Assembly (NCBI RefSeq): GCF_023028105.1
Contig: NZ_CP095491.1
Location: 930,001-994,000 of the forward strand
Source: Halosolutus gelatinilyticus
Lineage (GTDB): Archaea > Halobacteriota > Halobacteria > Halobacteriales > Natrialbaceae
DNA length: 64,000 bases
Direction: 5' to 3'
The position numbers and the translations under genes are program-made. Under the pieces are notes generated by a model. The model saw only the letters and a list, made by a program, of their open reading frames with translations, ran no database searches and was not told the DNA's origin. Below are positions 7,178 through 32,305 of the stretch, in pieces. The number at the start of each line of letters is the position of its first letter. Position 1 is the stretch's first letter.

Positions 7178-8437
7178 ATGAGCCAGGAGGGCGAGCAGGA
7201 GCAATCCGACCGGAAAAAATACGAGTTCCGGAAGGTCATCGAGGACCTCAAGCAGTACGAGGGCTCCGGTACGCAGCTAGTCTCGATCTACGTTCCCGAC
7301 GATCGCCAGATCAGCGACGTCGTTCAACACGTCACGCAGGAACACAGCGAAGCCGCCAACATCAAGTCCAAACAGACCCGGACGGCCGTCCAAGACGCGC
7401 TGACGAGCATCAAAGATCGACTTCGATACTACGACACCTATCCGCCGGAAAACGGGATCGTGCTGTTTTCCGGCGCCGTCGACTCGGGCGGCGGCCAGAC
7501 CGAGATGGTGACGCAGGTACTCGAGAGTCCGCCCCAGCCGGTCGAGTCGTTTCGCTACCACTGCGATTCGGATTTCCTCACCGAACCCTTAGAGGAGATG
7601 CTGGCGGACAAGGGGCTGTACGGCCTGATCGTCCTCGACCGGCGCGAGGCCAACGTCGGCTGGCTGAAGGGCAAACGCATCGAACCCGTCAAGTCAGCCT
7701 CCTCGCTCGTCCCCGGCAAGCAGCGCAAGGGTGGACAGTCGGCCCAGCGGTTCGCCCGCCTGCGGCTCGAAGCGATCGACAACTTCTACCAGGAGGTCGC
7801 GGGGATGGCCAACGACCTGTTCGTCCCGAAGCGCCACGAACTCGACGGCGTTCTCGTCGGCGGTCCCTCGCCCACCAAAGACGAGTTCCTCGACGGCGAC
7901 TACCTCCACCACGAAATCCAGGATAAAGTCCTCGGCAAGTTCGACGTCGCCTACACCGACGAGTCCGGCCTGAAAGACCTCGTCGACAACGCCGAAGACG
8001 CGCTGGCCGACGCCGAGGTGATGAAGGACAAGAAGGTGATGGAGGAGTTCTTCGAGGAACTCAACGCCGGCGACCTCGCCACCTACGGCTTCGAGCAGAC
8101 CCGACGGAACCTCGTGATGGGCGCGGTCGATCGGCTCCTTATCAGCGAGGACCTTCGGCGGGACGTCGTCACCTACGACTGTCCGGAGTGCGGCAACACC
8201 GATCGCGAGGTGATCGATCGGCGGAAGTCGACGCCGGCCCACGACTGCACCGAATGCGGCACGACGGTCGAGGCCACCGAGGAGGATCGCGAGGACGCGA
8301 TCGATCACCTCATCGAAATCGCCGAACAGCGGGGCACGGAAACCAAGTTCATTTCGACCGACTTCGAGAAGGGCGAACAACTGTACAACGCGTTCGGCGG
8401 ATTTGCGGGCATTCTGCGGTACAGTACCGGCGTCTAA
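7178..8437 (+). CDS. prf1: peptide chain release factor aRF1
   Basis: Class I archaeal release factor of 419 aa that recognises all three stop codons and triggers peptidyl-tRNA hydrolysis. The N domain contains the NIKS motif (ANIKSKQTR, about residues 61-69), used in stop-codon recognition. The M domain contains the catalytic GGQ loop (KGGQSAQRF, about 184-192). The C-terminal domain carries a zinc-ribbon-like pair (CPECG ... CTECG, about 333-365). I prefer the ATG at 7178 (MSQEGEQEQSDRKKYEF) over an in-frame upstream start at 7136, because homologues begin close to the KKYEFRKVIE segment. Confidence 0.95.
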   Translation: MSQEGEQEQSDRKKYEFRKVIEDLKQYEGSGTQLVSIYVPDDRQISDVVQHVTQEHSEAANIKSKQTRTAVQDALTSIKDRLRYYDTYPPENGIVLFSGAVDSGGGQTEMVTQVLESPPQPVESFRYHCDSDFLTEPLEEMLADKGLYGLIVLDRREANVGWLKGKRIEPVKSASSLVPGKQRKGGQSAQRFARLRLEAIDNFYQEVAGMANDLFVPKRHELDGVLVGGPSPTKDEFLDGDYLHHEIQDKVLGKFDVAYTDESGLKDLVDNAEDALADAEVMKDKKVMEEFFEELNAGDLATYGFEQTRRNLVMGAVDRLLISEDLRRDVVTYDCPECGNTDREVIDRRKSTPAHDCTECGTTVEATEEDREDAIDHLIEIAEQRGTETKFISTDFEKGEQLYNAFGGFAGILRYSTGV

Positions 8438-8785
8438 ACCGACGCCACGCGCTCGTCCCGGGGACGCAATCGCGCGACCGAGCCACCTTCATACCGCTCG
8501 ATCCACCCTGCGACGATCGTCCTCACGAGTCCGGAAGCGAAATCGTCGCGAATCCGGAACTCACACGTCGCGAACACGGGAGGCTACGTCAGCCGACCGG
8601 AACGATATCGATCGGCGTCACGACGAGCTGCACCGTTCCGATCCACACCGCTTCGCACCGTTCCAATTCGGCCGATTTCGCGCCGAACGGGTTCCCGTCC
8701 GACAGGGTGTGGCCGCGGCCGACGAGATCGCGTCTGGGGCCGGCCGTTCGGAACCTCTCGGCGATCTGTCTCGACATCGGCGGAG
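8438..8785. other. intergenic stretch between aRF1 and the FilR1-type regulator
   Basis: About 350 bp. Apparent frames here are arginine/histidine/threonine-rich shadows without starts or conserved motifs. I see no gene, RNA or repeat. Confidence 0.4.
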
Positions 8786-8792
8786 TTTTATT
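8786..8792 (+). promoter_or_regulatory. TATA-like element before the FilR1-type regulator
   Basis: TTTTATT lies 31-37 bp upstream of the ATG at 8823, in a local AT-rich island in otherwise GC-rich sequence. Confidence 0.4.
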
Positions 8793-8822
8793 CGATCGGC
8801 AATTGGTATTGGCATAGGGTCG

Positions 8823-9608
8823 ATGTCTTCGCCAAGTCCCACACTGGACGTCCTCGAGACGGTTGCCCGCAGAGAGCCGCTCCTCTCGAGCCTCGCGGAG
8901 CAGCCCCGCGACAAGCGAGACCTCGTCGACCACCTCGACTGTTCCCGATCGACGATCGACCGGGCAGTCCGCGAGCTCGAGTGGCTCGAATTCGTCGACC
9001 GAACGGACGGCACCTATCGGCTGACCGCCGCGGGACGGCTGGCGCTCGCGGAACATCGCCGCAGCGCCGCCGTCTTCGAATCGATCGAAACGCGCAGTCA
9101 CCTGCTGGGGCACATGCCGCCCGATGCGCCGATGTCGGCGGCCATGCTTGAGGGCTCCGAGGCGACGGAGCCGCCGTCGCACGCGCCGAACGAACCCCTC
9201 CAGGAACTCACCTGCTACCTCGATCGGGCCGACCGGGTGCGAGCGATCGCCGGGGCGGAGCGGATTCCACAGCTCCGCCGGCGGTTGTACGATCGGACGG
9301 TCAACGGCGACCTCGATGCGGAGCTGCTCATGACCGACGATCTCGCCGAGTTCATCGTGGCCGAGTATCCCGAACAGGTACACGACCTCGCCGTCGCCGG
9401 CGCGGTCGACTTCTACGTCGTCGACTCGCTCCCCTACGAACTCACGATCTTCGAGTTACCGACCGGCTCGCAGGTGTTCCTGTTCGCCATCCAGGAGACG
9501 GATATCAAGGCGGTTCTCACGAACGATTCGCAGGCCGCTCTCGAGTGGGCCACCGGCGTGTACCGCCGGTTCCGCACCTCCGCGAAGAAGCTGTCACCGC
9601 CGGAATGA
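8823..9608 (+). CDS. winged-HTH transcriptional regulator with FilR1-like C-terminal domain
   Basis: Protein of 261 aa. Residues about 8-75 form an ArsR/MarR-like winged helix: LETVARREPLLSSLAEQP, then the recognition part DLVDHLDCSRSTIDRAVREL, then the wing WLEFVDRTDGTYRLTAAG. The C-terminal domain (about residues 120-255) resembles the FilR1/DUF1724 ligand-binding domain seen in methanogen FilR1/MsvR-type regulators. In that domain VRAIAGAERIPQLRRRLYDR and the LTIFELPTGSQVFLFAIQE region are typical. Haloarchaeal genomes hold many such regulators; the effector is unknown. The start at 8823 follows a TATA-like element. Confidence 0.8.
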   Translation: MSSPSPTLDVLETVARREPLLSSLAEQPRDKRDLVDHLDCSRSTIDRAVRELEWLEFVDRTDGTYRLTAAGRLALAEHRRSAAVFESIETRSHLLGHMPPDAPMSAAMLEGSEATEPPSHAPNEPLQELTCYLDRADRVRAIAGAERIPQLRRRLYDRTVNGDLDAELLMTDDLAEFIVAEYPEQVHDLAVAGAVDFYVVDSLPYELTIFELPTGSQVFLFAIQETDIKAVLTNDSQAALEWATGVYRRFRTSAKKLSPPE

Positions 9609-30638: not shown

Positions 30639-30646
30639 GCACCGAT
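30639..30646. repeat. left 8-bp target-site duplication
   Basis: GCACCGAT immediately before the left inverted end; identical to the sequence at 31978-31985 directly after the right end. Confidence 0.85.
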
Positions 30647-30691
30647 GGCTTTGTTGAACCCCTCAAGATATTACAACTCTTGGATGCTGAT

Positions 30692-31759
30692 TCAGTGGTG
30701 AGCGTTCAGTCGTAAGGCGATATATTCGGCGTCGGGACCCACACCACGGATGGTAGCAGAAACGGGTGTTCGCTGGAAGGGGAGACCAAGGAAGTACAGC
30801 CCCGGTTCCTCAGTTACCACACCCTTCTCGTGAATTGGATACCCGTTCTCGTCGAGAGTTAGTCCCGGGAGATCGATCCACTCGAATCCGGGCCGGAATC
30901 CCGTTGCCCAGACCACGACATCCACGTCAAGGACCTGACCGTCTTCAAGACGTGGCTTACCGTCTGTCATCCCCTCTGTCCGAGCCACCCGTTCGACACC
31001 ACTTTGGCGGATGTCTGCTGGCGTAAGACGAATCAGTGGATCTCCTTGTCCCAGACTGCGCTTTTTTATCTTCCGACCGAGCCAGGTATCAACTGTGAAT
31101 ATAGTACCGGATAGCCACCAGAAGAGTCGCGAGTTGAATAACCAACAAGGGATATGACCGGTATCACGACCTGACAGCCACGTGCTACGCCCATCACCAG
31201 TTAGCTCAACAGCGATTTCAGCCCCCGAATTCCCGGCACCGACGACGAGGACACTACCAGCAGGAAGCTGGGCAGGATTCTGATAGTCACTTGAGTGGAG
31301 CTGAGTAATTGACGGGGTGAGCTCGTCAGCGAATTTGGGAATATACGGACGTTGGAACGGACCTGTTGCCACGACAACGTTGGTTGCAGTCAACCGGTTT
31401 GATTCGGTTTGTAGCACGTAGTAATCGTTGTTCCGAATGAGCGCCTTAACTCGCGTATTGAGACGTATTGGGAGGGTGAGTTCGGTAGCGTACGTCTGTA
31501 AGTAGTCGGCCATCTCGTCCTTGGTCGGGAAGTAGTCGTCGGATGCGGGGAACGACATCCCCGGTAAACTGCTATTCCGGGCCAAGGTGAACAGACGCAA
31601 CGAATCCCACCGATTGCGCCACGTATCTCCGATACAATCACTGGCGTCCAGAATGAGGAAGTCACGATCCTGCTCCTCCAAATAGTACCCTATGGATAGA
31701 CCAGCTTGACCGCCGCCAATCACGACGGTATCGAAATGCAGTTGAGATCTACTAGTCAT
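30692..31759 (-). CDS. FAD/NAD(P)-dependent monooxygenase-like flavoprotein (CzcO-like), cassette passenger
   Basis: Protein of 355 aa. An N-terminal FAD-binding Rossmann motif, VVIGGGQAGLSIGYYLEE (about residues 12-29), is followed by the flavin monooxygenase-type WRNRWDSLRLFT segment. A second NAD(P)H Rossmann motif, VLVVGAGNSGAEIAVEL, is at about residues 166-182. VVWATGFRPGFEW is the ATG motif. It ends with a GLYFLGLPFQRTPVSATIRG segment. Relatives (CzcO/flavin-containing monooxygenase-like) oxygenate N-, S- or carbonyl substrates; the physiological substrate is unknown. Base and codon use is clearly less GC-rich than in neighbours, and the gene lies wholly within the cassette ends, so it is probably horizontally acquired. 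Confidence 0.9.
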   Translation of the reverse strand: MTSRSQLHFDTVVIGGGQAGLSIGYYLEEQDRDFLILDASDCIGDTWRNRWDSLRLFTLARNSSLPGMSFPASDDYFPTKDEMADYLQTYATELTLPIRLNTRVKALIRNNDYYVLQTESNRLTATNVVVATGPFQRPYIPKFADELTPSITQLHSSDYQNPAQLPAGSVLVVGAGNSGAEIAVELTGDGRSTWLSGRDTGHIPCWLFNSRLFWWLSGTIFTVDTWLGRKIKKRSLGQGDPLIRLTPADIRQSGVERVARTEGMTDGKPRLEDGQVLDVDVVVWATGFRPGFEWIDLPGLTLDENGYPIHEKGVVTEEPGLYFLGLPFQRTPVSATIRGVGPDAEYIALRLNAHH

Positions 31760-31818
31760 ATACAGTCTTACTCATCCTAATGGAGCAGTTTTATGTATTA
31801 CTTGGGTGGCTCAAATCC

Positions 31819-31977
31819 GGCCTTGTTGAAATCCTCAGCCGGTGATAGGACTCACCAGTCGTGCTGAATACGGAGCGCGTATCGGCCACGAAGCAAGTCA
31901 GCAATCGTTCAGCGTTGAGGGTGTACTTACCGCCAAGGGCGGCGAGCTTATCACTTATTACGGGGCTCAACAGAGCC
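31819..31977. repeat. nested IS-end-derived segment inside the cassette
   Basis: GGCCTTGTTGAAATCC at 31819-31834 is a third copy of the terminal sequence. It pairs in inverted orientation with the right end of the cassette, bounding 159 bp. The interior has a readable frame on each strand but no recognisable transposase motif. It looks like an internally deleted IS or MITE-like remnant that supplies the right end of the larger cassette. Confidence 0.55.
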
Positions 31978-31985
31978 GCACCGAT
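31978..31985. repeat. right 8-bp target-site duplication
   Basis: GCACCGAT, identical to 30639-30646, directly after the right inverted end (...CAACAGAGCC). Confidence 0.85.
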
Positions 31986-32305
31986 CGGGTCGTGATCCAC
32001 GGCTGTCTCGCGAACGGCGACTCCCGCGACGAACTGTCAGTACGAGATGGTTCGATCGAAGCGGAGACGGAGGACGCGCTCGTCGTGACGATGCAGATAA
32101 CGCGCAAGGAGACTGACGAACTGGTGCTCACCGCGCCGACGCTTCGTCACTATCGCCTCGTCGTCGACTTCGCGGGCGATCCGCCGCCGAGATGCGAGAT
32201 CGAGCACCTTGACACCGACGAGAACCGGCAGTACAGGGTGATAAAAGCGTTTCAACCGTCGGACGGGCCGGATATGGTGCGGGTATGAAAATCTTCCGCT
32301 GGGAC

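Follow-up and report, generated by a model that had tools for sequence, protein, structure and literature searches.

A probable mobile insertion cassette with ISHla2-type ends around a flavoprotein gene in Halosolutus gelatinilyticus

A flavoprotein gene between inverted ends

The stretch of DNA analysed here (the window, 64,000 nucleotides) covers positions 930001-994000 of one contig (G000:C1:930001-994000) of a host genome that comprises 4.76 Mb in four contigs. Within the window, a block of 1331 bp at 30647-31977 is bounded by two terminal inverted repeats, GGCTTTGTTGAACCCC on the left (30647..30662, plus strand) and GGCTCTGTTGAGCCCC on the right (31962..31977, minus strand), which are identical at 14/16 positions, and it is bordered by two exactly matching copies of the 8-bp sequence GCACCGAT, at 30639..30646 and 31978..31985. 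The block holds a gene on the minus strand (30692..31759) whose reading frame and Pfam domains (Pyr_redox_3, PF13738, 129 bits; FMO-like, PF00743, 49 bits) identify a 355-aa FAD/NAD(P)-dependent flavoprotein monooxygenase-like enzyme. Assignment of the protein to ArsO was rejected, its 222.7 bits against NF040505 being below the cut-off of 425. Upstream of the start codon, on the minus strand, lies an AT-rich stretch, AATACATAAAAC, which, judged by eye, probably supplies the cassette with a promoter of its own.

The features on which a sequence-only reading had based its proposal of a mobile cassette hold. Direct reading confirmed the IS5-type inverted ends and the perfect duplication; the open reading frame list, Pfam and tblastn confirmed a single flavoprotein gene without a transposase, the flavoprotein frame standing alone in 30647-31977 and the ISHla2-type transposase giving 0 tblastn matches inside; and G+C is lower within the block, at 0.53 compared with about 0.62-0.70 for most intervals of the flanking sequence.

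Could the flanking duplication be a coincidence? The end pattern GGCYYTGTTGAAAYCCTC occurs in 41/71 related genomes, and a reversed control gave 0. Facing ends were paired in regions fetched around such ends, with two end mismatches allowed, and their 8-bp flanks were compared; perfect flanks were found for 42/114 facing pairs from the same locus, and flanks with at most one difference for 50/114. Among 16,081 random cross-locus pairs, 2 were perfect and 21 had at most one difference, and a shifted-flank control gave 0/507 pairs. The disparity between the perfect counts for facing pairs and for random pairs excludes a chance origin of the duplication.

The proposed target of insertion

The insertion point falls close to the 5' end of a small open reading frame, a feature that the sequence-only reading had overlooked. 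The 3' part of this frame occupies 31986..32288 on the plus strand, and the joined flanks give an open frame, ...STEKWRRSSTSTD/RVVIHGCLANGDS... (...STSTD/RVVIHGCLANGDS... when joined at one GCACCGAT). In a congener (G001), the homologue of the split frame at the syntenic position is uninterrupted (...YPDEDRVVILGCLVNGNS...), and this lends partial support only to a putative insertion into the small frame. A check for strains with an intact empty site had been proposed, and its outcome is positive in part: the uninterrupted homologue is there, but homology upstream of it is too weak to reveal a single GCACCGAT. A clean empty site with one copy of GCACCGAT was not found for the joined cassette flanks, no relative being homologous across the junction, and no relative had homology spanning the joined flanks of the LtrA and GNAT elements described below; for these three elements, the intergenic stretches are too poorly conserved.

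History of the passenger gene

At E <= 1e-60, the passenger gene has matches in 19/243 genomes of the order, and within the host family these are confined to the window genome and G029; G028, which is absent from these matches, has a further relative of the gene. The closest relatives are a chromosomal gene of Haladaptatus halobius (79% identity), which belongs to another family, and a plasmid gene of Natrinema sp. SYSU A 869 (78%), and the three homologues form a clade with support of 100/99. The gene appears to be foreign to its host. Homology to the Natrinema sequence begins exactly at base 30647 and homology to that of Haladaptatus at 30646-30647, within one base of the end; both extend to just before 31819, the left inverted repeat is linked to the gene in both species, and the outer flanks differ in all three genomes. 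From these shared limits and differing flanks, we infer that the end at 30647 marks a genuine junction and moves together with the flavoprotein gene and that a 159-bp unit beyond 31819, described below, is special to the window-genome copy of the cassette. In Natrinema and Haladaptatus, only one recognisable end lies beside the gene, and no second end whose flank gives a matching duplication turned up within about 40 kb.

These relatives bear on an alternative explanation, in which plasmid integration or homologous recombination brought the gene and the ends and duplication reflect independent IS or MITE insertions together with coincidence. That the closest relatives, one on a plasmid and one on a chromosome, are without a second end is in its favour. 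However, a perfect 8-bp match would arise by chance with a probability of about 1e-4 per pair, homology to the two other species ends at or within one base of the IS end, and the congener has the split frame intact in the syntenic place; additionally, no plasmid flanking genes in common with Natrinema or Haladaptatus were seen, homology stopping at the IS end. We consider this explanation very improbable and favour transposition of a cassette.

A MITE-like unit on the right side

The sequence-only reading had also overlooked a third IS end, GGCCTTGTTGAAATCC, which is located at 31819 and faces right. This A1-type end and the end at 31977, which faces left, delimit a MITE-like unit of 159 bp (31819..31977) that has the size and ends of a MITE and is without a target duplication of its own, such that the flavoprotein gene sits between a solitary end (30647) and the unit. 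The A1 profile, one of the arm profiles discussed below, scores 58 bits at 31819, and the A1 arm at 31819..31882 (plus strand) is 86% identical to the A1 consensus over 64 bp; the left end at 30647 matches the arm profiles only weakly (A2, 16 bits). The first 65-75 bp of the unit match IS or cassette ends in many haloarchaea, and the A1 arm is common to cassettes with other genes (LtrA, GNAT, MMPL and others); a search elsewhere for a full-length second copy of 31819-31977 found none. Because its right side is a MITE-like unit, the cassette differs from a simple IS in which a passenger has taken the place of the transposase.

How, then, might such a block have become transposable? In what we regard as the simplest account, a solitary IS end would already have stood 45 bp past the stop codon of the flavoprotein gene, a MITE-like unit would have come to lie on the other side of the gene, and the block would have become transposable once the solitary end was paired with the distal end of the MITE. 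An ISHla2-type transposase would have bound the two ends, and the whole block would have been inserted into the 5' part of the small frame with duplication of 8 bp.

Autonomous elements and the transposase

In relatives, autonomous elements (L155, 1160 bp; L168, 1238 bp; L202, 1418 bp) have the ends of the cassette together with perfect 8-bp duplications, and they encode a transposase of 273 aa. The transposase of L155 matches the IS5-family model NF033579 of NCBIfam with 219.7 bits (cut-off 140), and a transposase relative with 84.6% identity is annotated as ISHla2 family in Halorubrum lacusprofundi, where the ISHla2 copy has the same ends and two flanks that do not match. Where the sequence-only reading had named IS5-group elements such as ISH1, the matching IS is of the ISHla2 type (IS5 family, NF033579) and not ISH1 itself. 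A full IS with the same ends, which was to be sought in the host, is found with 8-bp duplications in relatives (L155 and L168), but the copy in the host genome is frame-shifted: the closest transposase copy, at C1:1895192-1896009, is split by a frameshift, and it is the only ISHla2-type copy found there. Congeners G001 and G002 have intact copies of the ISHla2-type transposase. Judging from these genomes, past mobility in trans is plausible, and present mobility in this strain is doubtful because the only transposase copy of this type that was found is broken. Around the host IS, its left end occurs twice, as a direct repeat on either side of a PAP2-like gene (L059 / L235, G000:C1:1895141-1897616), and the second copy of this end is broken by the 125-bp MITE listed below for the host.

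Related elements in the host and in other haloarchaea

The sequence-only reading had proposed a search for other cassettes with different passengers, and such cassettes are present both in the host and in many further genomes. In the host, where the survey comprised a pattern search for ends and the regions fetched with them, ends being paired by their flanks, there are five transposase-free elements with perfect 8-bp duplications, the flavoprotein cassette included. The others are an element of 2076 bp with a gene for an LtrA membrane protein, assigned by Pfam (C1:2441886-2443961, duplication GATCGATT), one of 879 bp with a GNAT acetyltransferase, also assigned by Pfam (C1:3175622-3176500, CTTAGCCT), one of 777 bp with a 149-aa protein of no assigned family (C4:1881-2657, AAAAATCG), and a 125-bp MITE with no cargo (C1:1897492, AAGTATTC). 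An ABC-transporter element of 3194 bp (C1:3743433-3746626) has a near-perfect duplication of 7/8 bp.

Across relatives, a catalogue built with a looser end rule than the 114-pair count, a few of whose entries are nested in one another or have the variant end TGCTCTGTTGAATCCG (L199, L207), contains 58 elements with at most one duplication mismatch, 46 of them perfect. Similarity to transposases is seen in 14 of the 46; the 32 without it comprise 20 that are longer than 470 bp and 12 that are MITE-sized. Cargoes in relatives include an alpha/beta hydrolase (L133), a BAT/HTH_10 regulator (L126), a GNAT enzyme (L169) and an MMPL transporter (L176, in genome G027), and a GNAT cargo recurs between comparable ends, with a duplication of 7/8 bp, on a plasmid of Natrononativus amylolyticus (L326 2464-3379). 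One element, L211, has a layout similar to that of the flavoprotein cassette, a 125-bp MITE lying immediately within one of its ends. In other relatives, a transposase and passengers share one element (L117, L128, L142 and L216), the passenger being a PHO4 phosphate transporter in L142 and a histidine kinase in L216. Four matches to the end pattern in viral contigs were rejected as chance matches in low-G+C DNA with no partner ends.

Two of these loci have features of their own. L128 (4463-12785, in G004) is an 8.3-kb element with a perfect duplication, TCACAACG, that carries genes for NosL, NosD, an ABC ATPase, a permease and a helix-turn-helix protein along with an ISHla2-type transposase, i.e. 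accessory nitrous-oxide-reduction genes within an IS-type transposon. At L169 (G042), a 548-bp A2/A1 element (8208-8755) lies inside the terminal part of a larger element with a GNAT gene (7430-8852), and the target of the smaller element matches the IS-end sequence (GGCTCCGT/GGCTCTGT), one element having inserted into the end of another.

Two kinds of arms

Beyond the 16-bp ends, the ISs have arms that we term B1 and B2; a different pair, A1 and A2, is found in most cassettes. Type-A arms stand on both sides of 19 elements, of which 17 are A1+A2 and two are A1-like pairs (one nearly tied with A2), and similarity to transposases was seen in 0/19. The 72-base A1 consensus occurs in 121/195 genomes and 52/67 genera of the order. 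Since these arms are distinct, transposase-free and order-wide, the A-arm cassettes do not look like fresh deletions of ISs.

The arms also bear on the possibility that the locus is an ordinary IS in which the transposase gene was replaced by the flavoprotein gene, through deletion and recombination inside the IS, with the 159-bp unit playing no role. Replacement of this kind is the usual account of mobile insertion cassettes in bacteria, and elements that could be its intermediates, holding both transposase and passengers, exist among the relatives (L117, L128, L142 and L216). Set against this, similarity of either cassette arm to the ISHla2-type arms B1/B2 does not extend beyond the last 16 bp, the right-hand part of the cassette is a separate unit bounded by its own pair of ends, and the end at 30647 stays with the gene in genomes without the right arm. 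We judge such a replacement unlikely, and we continue to favour a block mobilized through a solitary end and the far end of a MITE-like unit.

Mixed elements suggest that A- and B-type arms can be used by a single transposase group: L150 combines a B2 arm with an A1 arm, and in L161 an A1 end is paired with a transposase-bearing end whose transposase frame is intact (G034), each element having a perfect duplication. In both A1 and A2 arms, at all loci, a box, GTGCTGAATAYAGAG, lies about 40 bp from the end; it is possibly a second transposase-binding site. A subterminal hairpin in the arms was rejected, the apparent inverted repeat downstream being, by eye, too poorly kept.

Is there an autonomous IS with A1/A2 arms? 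Transposases that are about 40% alike adjoin A1 arms in several genomes; however, such an IS was rejected as they belong to a second IS (ends GGCYNTGTTTAGACGC) located inside the arm. In several genomes, this second IS is found at nearly the same point of the A-arm subterminal box, between ...GCTGAATACAGRGCGCG and GGCC... (L047 1562(-), L131 1034, L157 10640(-), L180 9856(-), L152 5608(-) and L139 3874(-)), and in the cases checked the adjoining transposase shares about 40% identity with the ISHla2 type. The box looks like a preferred target of the second IS.

Relation to known mobile elements

Mobile insertion cassette (MIC) and transporter IS (tIS) are established terms (PMC3129680). Like an MIC, the block at 30647-31977 is without a transposase, has the ends of an IS group (as in L155, L168 and ISHla2), is flanked by an 8-bp duplication (as are L155, L168 and L202), and carries a passenger of the FAD/NAD(P) oxidoreductase family that is unrelated to transposition. 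Other classes were considered and set aside: the IS5-family transposase of an autonomous ISHla2-group IS is absent; a tIS would have a transposase, as L117, L128, L142 and L216 in relatives do; a length of 1331 bp with a 355-aa gene does not suit a MITE; and a solitary left end, a 159-bp right unit and no transposase do not suit a composite transposon. We therefore read 30647-31977, with a probability of roughly 0.85, as a mobile insertion cassette with ISHla2-type ends of the IS5 family and one passenger, which would have been moved by a transposase acting in trans.

The MIC concept is known from bacteria. The reference list of PMC2266710 includes MIC231, with IS231, in Bacillus cereus and modular variants of it with different passengers. 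MICs of this type share with our cassette the IS ends, the missing transposase, the passenger gene and a duplication of the IS's length (PMC3129680, PMC2266710); they differ in being IS4-family and bacterial, whereas here the ends are IS5-family, the hosts are haloarchaea, and two unequal arm types with many different passengers are common across an order. A qnrS2 mobile insertion cassette of Aeromonas contains a MITE and, like ours, has inverted repeats around a passenger gene (PMC5444012); its internal MITE lies upstream of the gene inside the cassette, with 17-bp repeats and a 4-bp duplication of its own (PMC5444012), whereas in our cassette the MITE-like unit lacks a duplication of its own and its far end doubles as the cassette end. 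ISHla2-type ISs (IS5 family, NF033579) share the terminal 16 bp and, in relatives' copies, the 8-bp duplications, but they have a transposase and B1/B2 arms, neither of which is in the cassette. Transposase-free haloarchaeal MITEs, including the ISH2 type (about 520 bp) with a short open reading frame, have been described; they likewise depend on a transposase in trans, but most are <500 bp and non-coding (PMC3119063), in contrast to the transposase-free cassettes here, which reach about 5 kb and carry enzymes, transporters and regulators. A haloarchaeal MIC family of such breadth was not found in the open literature, subscription papers and ISfinder being outside the search.

Outlook

Haloarchaea trade genes widely, but few descriptions exist of small vehicles for single genes. 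In the elements analysed here, one kind of end flanks about twenty different cargoes, with exact duplications, among them regulators, transporters, a hydrolase, acetyltransferases and an oxygenase, and transposase-free cassettes with so many genes suggest a route by which genes are passed among haloarchaea. More tentatively, and with the odds in our view somewhat against it, the A1/A2 elements may represent a long-lived, order-wide lineage of transposase-free cassettes in which interchangeable genes sit between two unequal conserved arms; such a lineage would depend on ISHla2-type transposases and serve as a general gene shuttle, somewhat like integron cassettes but working by IS5 transposition, with new genes captured by the pairing of a solitary end with the distal end of a neighbouring MITE or IS. 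If these cassettes are indeed moved by a transposase in trans, any gene between two such ends becomes mobile, and predicted cassettes could be listed in every haloarchaeal genome.
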